NCBI RefSeq assembly: GCF_000167195.1
Contig: NZ_AADV02000011.1
Coordinates: 1-42,731, forward strand
Direction of reading: 5' to 3'
Source of the DNA: Crocosphaera watsonii WH 8501
Lineage (GTDB): Bacteria; Cyanobacteriota; Cyanobacteriia; Cyanobacteriales; Microcystaceae
DNA length: 42,731 bases
Under the pieces are notes generated by a model. The model made no database searches and had not been told where the DNA came from. It worked only from the letters and a program-made list of their open reading frames with translations. Shown piece after piece: positions 37,449 to 39,029 of this stretch (its first letter is position 1; each line of letters opens with the position of its first letter). The translations under genes were made by a program, and so were the position numbers.

Positions 37449-37474
37449 AATGACACTCTCCTATCTATGCTAAT

Positions 37475-37570
37475 TGACAACTCCACTGCCCTTATGGCGA
37501 GTGGATTCTTAAGAGACAAAAATCCTTAAAGGGTTAGCCAAAAACCCCCTAGACACTCGCTCAAAACTGA
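37475..37570 (-). ncRNA. Predicted omega-RNA scaffold at the tnpB 3' end
   Basis: In studied IS200/IS605 elements the guide RNA overlaps the tnpB 3' end and the element's right end, and the guide is the adjacent host DNA. By position, this is the end of tnpB and the hairpin at 37483-37504; the guide would be the trmB leader. Purely positional evidence. Confidence 0.35.
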
Positions 37571-38849
37571 GTCTGTGCTTACTTTTAACCAAAATATTGG
37601 CACTCCCATTAATATCGCTAGAAACCAGATGCTTATCTTTTGTCCGATACAAACCACGTTTAATTCTTTTACCAGAAAACTTCTGTTTACCTGGGTTATC
37701 GGCATTGTAAACAGGAATCTCATCTTGGTCGTAAAAACTAGCTTTAGACGAGTAAGACTCTTCTTGCTCCAAGTATTCGATACCATAGCGAGAACACAAA
37801 GCTTTAAGCTTCTGTCTCAGTTGCCAAAAAGGAATTTGAACAAAGTTGAGGTAGTGCGGTCTTGGGGTCTCCCCAAGTGGAGCAACTGCCGTCTGATTAT
37901 TGGAACGTCCGATATTAATCTCGTGTTTGATACCAGGGTTATACCCGACTACAAGCTTGCCAATTTGATAGGTCAAACAATGGTTAATTATTATTCGAGC
38001 CGTTTTGTTCAAATAATCTCTCACACGATCATTACGCCATTGATAAAGTCTAGCCTGTTGATTAGTAAAGCTTTTAATACCTTGTCTTGGTGCGCTTTCC
38101 TTAGCGGATTGAGAATCCGCAGGGTCGCACCGCTGTTTATCCTTGGCAGATTGAAGTTCAGCATTACGCTTGTTATACCACTGATTAATGCTTTTAAGTC
38201 TTTTCCCATCAATCAAAAATTGATGCCCCTCAGTGTCAAAACAAGCAGCCAAATTATCAACCCCCAAATCAATAGCCATCGCTTTGTCAGGAGTAACAGA
38301 TGTCTCTACTTTTTCATCCTCATAAATGTACTCGATCTCAAACCATCTCGCCGAGTATTTTGGATGTATTCTTACCTCCTTAATATCTTTATCTTTCAGT
38401 CTTTCAGGGAGTTGGATCTTAACCTCACCGTACTCCTTATTAAATTGTCGAGACATGGGAATTCTAAACACCCCATCTTTGACTTTGATTCTCGGAATAA
38501 TCAGAGGGAAATATCCGTCTTTCGGCAAGTATTTCGGAAGTTGTGGTTTTTGGTCATAGCGTCCTATGCTAATAGCCTTAAACAAACCCAAGAAAGACCT
38601 CATACTTCTATCCACCACCTTCATAGTCTGTTGCGCGATATCGGTGTTCAGAAGTCGATAGTTCTCGTTAGACTTACAAATATGGTAGTTAGATTCGTAG
38701 GTCAGCCGTTCTCTTTCTATAAAGAAATACTGCCTACATTCGTACAAGGCCACATTAAAAAGATTTTTGCTCAAACGACACAATACAGTCAGGGCTTTAA
38801 ATTCCTGCTGGCTAAGTCGTCTAAGTTGATTCTTTTGAGTGGCGTACAT
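37509..38849 (-). CDS. tnpB: RNA-guided endonuclease TnpB (IS605 OrfB), with two in-frame repeat insertions
   Basis: The 446-residue protein has the N-terminal TnpB helical/wedge part (QEFKALTVLCRLSKNLFN; about 1-185) and a split RuvC nuclease: Asp194 in AMAIDLGVDN, Glu363 or 364 in LEQEESYSSKASF, and Asp412 in SSDINGSANIL. The usual CxxC zinc-finger pairs before the last Asp are missing; instead KRIKRGLYRTKDKHLV follows, as in a known zinc-less subgroup. Two stretches look foreign: residues 240-256 (RCDPADSQSAKESAPRQ) split the common KDKQ-GIK junction, and 320-334 (TAVAPLGETPRPHYL) split NNQ-NFVQIPF. Both come from palindromic DNA repeats. Without them the protein would be about 414 residues. 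No stop or frameshift is present. Confidence 0.9.
   Translation of the reverse strand: MYATQKNQLRRLSQQEFKALTVLCRLSKNLFNVALYECRQYFFIERERLTYESNYHICKSNENYRLLNTDIAQQTMKVVDRSMRSFLGLFKAISIGRYDQKPQLPKYLPKDGYFPLIIPRIKVKDGVFRIPMSRQFNKEYGEVKIQLPERLKDKDIKEVRIHPKYSARWFEIEYIYEDEKVETSVTPDKAMAIDLGVDNLAACFDTEGHQFLIDGKRLKSINQWYNKRNAELQSAKDKQRCDPADSQSAKESAPRQGIKSFTNQQARLYQWRNDRVRDYLNKTARIIINHCLTYQIGKLVVGYNPGIKHEINIGRSNNQTAVAPLGETPRPHYLNFVQIPFWQLRQKLKALCSRYGIEYLEQEESYSSKASFYDQDEIPVYNADNPGKQKFSGKRIKRGLYRTKDKHLVSSDINGSANILVKSKHRLSFERVSRGFLANPLRIFVS
37848..37892. repeat. 45-bp palindromic repeat inserted in frame in tnpB (site 2)
   Basis: The core CTTGGGGTCTCCCCAAG (37861-37877) is a palindrome around its centre base, flanked by G/C-richer arms. 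It encodes 15 residues between two segments that are adjacent in other TnpB proteins of this type. Confidence 0.75.
38082..38132. repeat. Palindromic repeat inserted in frame in tnpB (site 1)
   Basis: Nested palindromes: GGTGCG at 38089-38094 pairs with CGCACC at 38126-38131, and GCGGATT at 38104-38110 pairs with AATCCGC at 38114-38120. The 51-base insertion encodes 17 residues in the linker after the first RuvC segment. Confidence 0.75.
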
Positions 38850-38855
38850 ATTTAA

Positions 38856-38894
38856 CAGTATTTCACTTTATATCTAGTATATAGCGAAATACTG
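38856..38894. promoter_or_regulatory. Inverted repeat in the tnpB 5' leader
   Basis: CAGTATTTC at 38856-38864 pairs exactly with GAAATACTG at 38886-38894, ending 6 bases before the tnpB ATG on the minus strand. The 21 bases between are AT-rich. It may be an operator, or part of the left-end structure. Confidence 0.4.
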
Positions 38895-38924
38895 TAATTG
38901 TCAAGCCGTCCTAAAGGCGGTCGG

Positions 38925-38988
38925 ATGAGGCGGAATTTATTTCCGCATCTCAGGTCGACCAAGAGAGGACTGGGTTTCAGTCCCAATT
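38925..38988. other. Two hairpins between the tnpB element and the phosphoesterase gene
   Basis: GCGGAA (38930-38935) pairs with TTCCGC (38941-38946), and GGACTG (38967-38972) pairs with CAGTCC (38978-38983), the latter followed by CAATTTTT. The second may be a terminator pointing right. They may also belong to the element's left end. Confidence 0.45.
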
Positions 38989-39029
38989 TTTCGATGATAA
39001 ATATATGCTTAAGTTGAAGAATTTTTGTG

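Follow-up and report, generated by a model that had tools for sequence, protein, structure and literature searches.

How can the gene of a transposon nuclease take up two palindromic repeats and keep its reading frame? This question is raised by a locus in the cyanobacterium Crocosphaera watsonii WH 8501, on contig NZ_AADV02000011.1 (the whole stretch analysed, 42,731 nucleotides, is called the window). Here an open reading frame (ORF) of 446 residues on the minus strand (37509-38849) matches the Pfam domain OrfB_IS605 (E = 2e-25) and encodes a TnpB protein, in which an initial annotation had recognized two palindromic in-frame inserts of 51 and 45 bases. Gaps in homologous proteins and comparison of the DNA confirmed both inserts, and we found further copies of both repeats inside and outside genes, as the annotation had anticipated. 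We consider it highly probable that two families of dispersed hairpin repeats inserted successively into loops of TnpB, and that the gene survived because the inserts can be read through.

Two in-frame inserts and their empty sites

We searched 388 genomes with the window TnpB, found a strong match in 40, and placed the best-scoring 14 (L026-L039; 42-82% identical) in a 16-row alignment. Both insert regions are gaps in all 14, none of which has the residues in question. The closest homologue (L026, 82% identical, 414 residues) is exactly 32 residues shorter, the sum of the 17 and 15 residues that homologues were predicted to lack, and the only other length differences at the two sites are small numbers of extra residues near insert 2 in L029 and L039. 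At the DNA level, the two sites in relatives are shorter by precisely 51 and 45 bases, respectively. The flanks of both inserts join into the relatives' empty site with zero duplicated target bases; the target-site duplication that marks a miniature inverted-repeat transposable element is thus absent from both tnpB sites compared.

Insert 2 is a 51-bp hairpin element of what we call family B (GC-GGTGCG...CGCACC-AAGACA; 38083-38133, minus strand). It contributes residues 240-256, RCDPADSQSAKESAPRQ, in the codon register 38082-38132, the junction being ambiguous by one base, and its site is empty in L026-L039. Insert 1 is a 45-bp hairpin element of family A1 (GAG...CGT; 37848-37892, plus strand, antisense to tnpB). 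It contributes residues 320-334, TAVAPLGETPRPHYL, and its site is empty in L215, L220, L203 and L026 by DNA comparison. When folded as single-stranded DNA and compared with shuffled sequences, element 2 gave z-scores of -4.8 or -4.1 depending on the strand, while element 1 forms a weaker hairpin (-2.6 or -1.7).

Two loci from the window's own genus, L215 (genome G680) and L220 (G669), carry insert 2 at the same place and lack insert 1. L220 is identical over 777 bases to L139, from Crocosphaera sp. MO_199.B6, which has insert 2 as well. These loci with insert 2 only show, at the level of sequence, a stepwise history that runs from no insert (L026) through insert 2 (L215 and L220) to both (the window).

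The two sites have also been used elsewhere. Insert 1 is present at the homologous site of a different TnpB subfamily (L354, genome G645), and this site is filled in L002 of the same genome as the window (contig C216); at the site adjoining insert 2, an uncultured Pleurocapsa sp. (L203) has a different insert of 84 bases. As read from these alignments, the same loops are filled more than once, and by different repeats. The L002 gene, with its A1 copy at the homologous site, is broken upstream by a stop and a frameshift near another hairpin repeat. The L203 gene belongs to the same TnpB subfamily as the window's (minus strand, ~504-1877) and has a family A-like hairpin near its C-terminus; its 84-base insert looks like the body of family B with another outer stem and nested repeats.

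Copies that share a flanking site are not always the same. In L153 and L159, the insertion flanks are identical and the hairpin apex looks, by eye, exactly reverse-complemented, as if the tip had flipped, an apparent inversion consistent with an intermediate that is single-stranded or cruciform. Among L144, L146, L084 and L190, copies that occupy one flanking site differ in their 3' arm or in length (a core of 43 or 45), and the same holds within L085/L334, L196/L339 and L277/L278. Such differing arms at one site suggest arm replacement or gene conversion in place.

Dispersed repeat families and the TnpB hot spot

Among 388 genomes of the order, 76 have matches to the family B pattern (GC-hairpin-AAGACA), and the richest genome has 229; with the pattern run backwards as a control, we noticed matches in two genomes, one apiece. 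The family A pattern was matched in 124 of 376 genomes, and control counts were zero in the rows inspected. A family B scan of named genomes returned at least 114 stretches. Among those listed, 109 have cyanobacterial titles, with hosts that include Moorena, Okeania, Hyella, Xenococcaceae, Crocosphaera, Leptolyngbya and others, while the five non-cyanobacterial matches (L107, L135, L166, L172 and L204), which have no GC flank, are probably due to chance. A plasmid of Stanieria cyanosphaera contains a match of 98% over 50 bases. No relevant Rfam match was found (best E = 0.91).

Family B hairpins covary. In 70 of 131 distinct 51-base elements, 95.4% of cells are paired over the whole structure, and nine of the ten pairs of the inner helix show double changes; the outer six pairs are invariant because the search pattern fixes them. 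The covariation score was 0.42 against 0.11 in shuffles, and none of 500 shuffles scored as high. The elements end in GC on one side and, on the other, in AAGA followed mostly by C or G and then A, and these ends are neither the GTAG nor the CGTC unpaired tag of the REP superfamilies. The A1 form was 45 bases long in 15 of 15 full copies, a length fixed by the search expression. It ends in CGT, and the base that follows varies (A 0.35, C 0.35, G 0.20, T 0.10). Because some copies of the A2 form share the GC...AAGACA ends with family B, families A and B belong by architecture to one wider group. In genome G677, A1 copies lie ~60 bases or less from the ends of contigs C48, C152, C188, C304, C319, C407 and C517; since A1 copies crowd contig ends in this way, the hairpins seem to break assemblies and counts are lower bounds.

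For counting, we left out family B matches without GC/AAGA flanks, cores below 40 nt, copies near contig ends, duplicates with the same flanks and loci obtained through TnpB homology. We classed the remaining 156 distinct family B sites by ORFs rather than by gene annotation. Inside TnpB, with both flanks encoding TnpB on the same strand, lie 38 sites, and 18 more have TnpB on one side; 22 are in other ORFs of at least 200 residues, 19 in ORFs of 100-199 residues, and 59 where there is no ORF of 100 residues. By this ORF-based classification, the repeat occurs in frame in unrelated genes and also where no gene is present, as is characteristic of a protein-coding palindrome. As an independent check, we compared spanning ORFs of 120 residues or more with OrfB_IS605, and 27 among 63 matched.

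We also scaled the counts to TnpB abundance. At 1.25 kb per gene, the fraction of the genome taken up by TnpB predicts 0.89 copies in TnpB for the eight genomes whose TnpB genes were counted; the observed number is 21 of 67. For three of the eight, the first listed places were counted, and their TnpB counts are lower bounds because scoring covered 150 candidates; G669 entered with 11 of its 12 family B matches and G680 with 3 of 4, and one copy from the window's own genome that lacks GC/AAGA flanks (L019) was retained. G648, G680 and G651, with 2 of 9 copies in TnpB, have no TnpB count and lie outside the 67. In the window's own genome, where TnpB makes up ~1.5% of the sequence, three of five family B copies are in TnpB, and all nine family A places examined, out of ten (the tenth is on contig C319), are TnpB-flanked or in a TnpB ORF, some of them as copies of one insertion sequence (IS). 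These counts demonstrate that TnpB genes are a hot spot for family B copies. By eye, about a dozen TnpB positions are filled, including KGK/QSNN, MVK/HRKL, PGK/GYPRF, KDKQ/GIK and KAK/GSLKL (the slash marks the insertion point).

Readability, selection and alternative explanations

The nuclease gene that carries the inserts is under purifying selection. For the gene body, the ratio of nonsynonymous to synonymous substitution rates (dN/dS) ranges from 0.062 to 0.094 in six pairwise comparisons of the window, L215, L220 and L026, and the window branch has gained 20 synonymous and 6 nonsynonymous changes since L215 and L220 (residues 173-446). Selection of this strength suggests that the nuclease is probably functional. 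Within insert 2, dN/dS is 0.30-0.77 on few sites, which is consistent with a relaxed loop. In the predicted model, the lowest-confidence stretches (residues 245-258 and 307-336) lie between helices and strands and coincide with the two inserts; together with the low dN/dS, this lends indirect support to the earlier suggestion that the protein tolerates loops at these places.

Each of the 33 TnpB-resident copies of 51 bases is spanned by an ORF, of 155-542 residues; for the five copies of 53 bases, the longest such ORF has 31-224 residues. A second suggestion of the initial annotation, that the repeats are selected to be translatable, could not be separately established. Lengths that are multiples of three are as common without an ORF (50 of 59) as in TnpB (33 of 38; p = 1.0), and we therefore rejected selection for such lengths within TnpB. 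Elements free of stops in all three sense frames number 24 of 38 in TnpB and 23 of 59 where there is no ORF (p = 0.023, one of several tests). No stop interrupts any of the six frames in 56 of the 156 elements (200 shuffles gave a mean of 26 and a maximum of 41), but this openness is not proof of selection, because the elements have a common ancestor and their ends are constant. The repeats may be selected for readability, but the most economical interpretation is that the 51-base form is readable by chance and is retained in genes for that reason. Keeping the frame is more aptly seen as inherent to the element than as the result of selection at each site. Moorena-type relatives, whose ends we assumed to be as in family B, differ in length: 3 of 25 are multiples of three, and none of the 25 is open in all six frames. 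None of 22 lies inside TnpB (two have it on one side) compared with 38 of 156 for the 51-base type (p = 0.005, unscaled for TnpB share).

Could the enrichment instead reflect survivorship, with insertion everywhere and persistence in dispensable genes such as those of transposons? We regard this as a serious contender, if on balance the less probable account. The 63 spanning ORFs do include three DDE_Tnp_1, one Transposase_mut and one reverse transcriptase (among the first 25 of 68 families). The left flank of the element is rich in A (the last base is A in 79%, and AAAAA occurs in 43 of 157 sites), and TnpB genes are richer in A-runs, with 6.8 per kb on the sense strand compared with 4.2 in other ORFs. 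However, A-run density accounts for less than a twofold excess, 33 of the 38 TnpB copies keep both a long ORF and a multiple-of-three length, and the strong purifying selection around insert 2 means that the window copy is not treated as dispensable.

Alternatively, IS elements may have brought the repeats into genomes by hitchhiking after rare insertions, rather than TnpB being entered repeatedly. Some TnpB sites do recur with identical flanks in several copies. This explanation is nevertheless unlikely, given the dozen or so different TnpB positions filled, an NNQ site that holds A1 in two subfamilies, an insert 2 site that holds a different repeat in L203, and a genome (G660) with 11 copies but hardly any TnpB.

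Orientation raised the question of whether the hairpins have been domesticated to regulate TnpB, for example as hairpins in the mRNA that modulate the nuclease or its guide RNA. Among the 36 of 38 TnpB copies with a spanning ORF of at least 100 residues, sense frames 2, 0 and 1 are used in 24, 8 and 1, and three copies are antisense; TnpB homology identifies two antisense strict copies, L100 and L114. By longest spanning ORF, the sense:antisense ratio is 33:3 in TnpB and 14:8 in other ORFs of at least 200 residues (p = 0.014). Because 78% of A-runs in TnpB genes lie on the sense strand (801 versus 227), most of this bias is explained and p = 0.045 remains; we thus set aside an RNA mechanism as the cause of a bias largely accounted for by A-runs. 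Insert 1 is moreover antisense, and only about a dozen of the 77 TnpB matches in the window's own genome are filled, making regulation a very improbable explanation. That the extra residues are ordinary loops of the TnpB lineage, ancestral or made by slipped duplication, with their palindromic DNA incidental, is scarcely credible: TnpB subfamilies do differ by indels, as the extra residues of L029 and L039 near insert 2 illustrate, but the same DNA recurs outside tnpB, in unrelated genes and without an ORF, in several frames and orientations, its pairs covary at the DNA level, and close relatives lack exactly the inserts.

We thus favor successive insertion of readable hairpins. Very small, non-autonomous hairpin repeats dispersed in cyanobacteria would insert sequentially, without target duplication, into two flexible TnpB loops. 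Elements of 17 and 15 codons that are stop-free in the frame used would be read as extra loops and the gene would survive, whereas copies of another length or with stops would break it. TnpB would be a preferred landing place partly because A-runs are common before the insertion point, and probably also because loop insertions are tolerated; an element inside a horizontally moving IS would ride along to new genomes. Movement of REP elements is generally ascribed to a single-stranded hairpin handled in trans by an HUH/Y1-type enzyme; here too, the mobile form may be the hairpin, with a Y1/HUH transposase or a similar enzyme acting in trans on single-stranded DNA. We infer that the inserts are translated and are harmless to the nuclease.

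Several points weigh against successive insertion of readable hairpins. Movement of the hairpins has never been observed, and no enzyme that moves them has been identified, none having been searched for. Element 1 beats shuffles only modestly in folding, and the covariation result covers family B alone. Insert 1 splits the conserved motif NNQ-NFVQIP and could harm activity; as it may have entered at any time along the window branch, dN/dS is a better test of function with insert 2 than with the two inserts together. Copy counts are not independent, since a multiplied IS carries its insert along, and the probabilities are thus too small. Finally, G660 has five TnpB matches and none of its 11 copies in TnpB, which indicates that the element does not depend on TnpB. 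A bolder proposal, which we regard as doubtful, is that the repeats form a hyperparasitic hairpin class with GC...AAGACA ends, covarying exchangeable arms and a stop-poor design of 17 codons, living inside working RNA-guided nucleases and travelling with transposons, and that insertion may be steered to TnpB loops.

The carrier element and other palindromic repeats

The gene resides in a tnpB-only element of IS200/IS605 type with a probable extent of 37474-38998 (minus strand), as compared with L026, L215 and, on the 3' side, L139. We set its ends by eye where the match to relatives stops; the left end lies near TCATCGAAAA and the right end is TCAA. Upstream of tnpB, a pattern scan found a third element of the same architecture (GC-GGTCGG...CGACC-AAGAGA; 38917-38966, plus strand, 50 bp; folding z = -4.7). 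Scanning the window for GC-stem...stem-AAGA returned two elements, insert 2 and this one. It splits the loop of a hairpin at the left end of the IS, and L026 and L215 have that hairpin without it. Judged by these comparisons, the IS has been entered by hairpins three times; the view that one element was colonized twice therefore stands for the two inserts and falls short in number.

Direct sequence matches between the window TnpB and solved structures were weak (best E = 0.085), so we used a fold search. The predicted model (mean predicted local distance difference test score 78) resembles TnpB and Cas12f structures, with template modeling scores, by target length, of 0.68 to 8h1j and 0.66 to 8iaz; the OrfB_IS605 domain and the TnpB fold together identify the carrier as a TnpB of IS200/IS605 type. 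We read no CxxC zinc motif in the C-terminal part of the protein. Within residues 296-366, the usual RuvC-II place (VVGYNPG) has no glutamate. An alternative catalytic glutamate exists in TnpB, and the invariant E361 and E364, close downstream of VVGYNPG, may replace the RuvC-II residue.

Small palindromes in cyanobacterial and other genomes have precedents. The Rickettsia palindromic elements (RPE) are said to go back to Ogata in 2000, and Elhai in 2008 reportedly described very small, structured, mutually nesting mobile repeats of 21-27 nt in Nostoc; the families here are likewise very small, structured and cyanobacterial, at 45-51 bp. In-frame palindromes are already known from RPE, Wolbachia WPE, the Neisseria 107-bp repeat and intragenic REPs, according to the sources consulted for this comparison (PMC2229807, PMC3767692, PMC3733652). 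RPE are dispersed palindromes of ~100-150 bp that lie in frame in protein genes and between genes, and the one tested host protein described there, guanylate kinase, stays active (PMC2229807, PMC3767692). The present repeats are also dispersed palindromes found in frame in genes and between them; however, they measure 45-51 bp, are cyanobacterial and are concentrated in a transposon nuclease, and we set them apart by size rather than file them as RPE.

The Neisseria Correia/NEMIS repeat of 107 bp has open frames and is found joined to other reading frames, those of three classes of transposase genes among them, whereas its 155-bp sister has stops and lies outside ORFs with one exception (PMC2229807), a contrast that parallels the one between the 51-base and Moorena-type forms. 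Correia repeats have target-site duplications, 5'TA3' termini and 24-bp terminal repeats (PMC2229807); the inserts here have no target duplication at either site compared and no such ends. REP palindromes tagged by GTAG or CGTC are hairpins with short unpaired tagged ends, have intragenic copies and include cyanobacterial families, and in the same source CGTC repeats were associated with transposase genes in just a few cases, judged fortuitous (PMC3733652). The present repeats share the hairpin, the short unpaired ends, the intragenic copies and the cyanobacterial hosts. Family B differs in its ends (GC...AAGACA); those of A1 are GAG...CGT. Our literature search, by sequence strings and by titles and abstract beginnings and extending to papers outside subscription, found no record of these families or of their concentration in TnpB.

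With these results, protein-coding palindromes, previously described in a few groups, extend to cyanobacteria, where a single well-studied fold offers dozens of natural examples. Interest in TnpB and Cas12f as compact genome editors is wide, and the natural inserts point to loops that seem able to accommodate 15-17 additional residues in nucleases still under selection. With exact empty and filled pairs, varied lengths and varied arms at one site, the movement of palindromes and selection for their translatability become directly testable.
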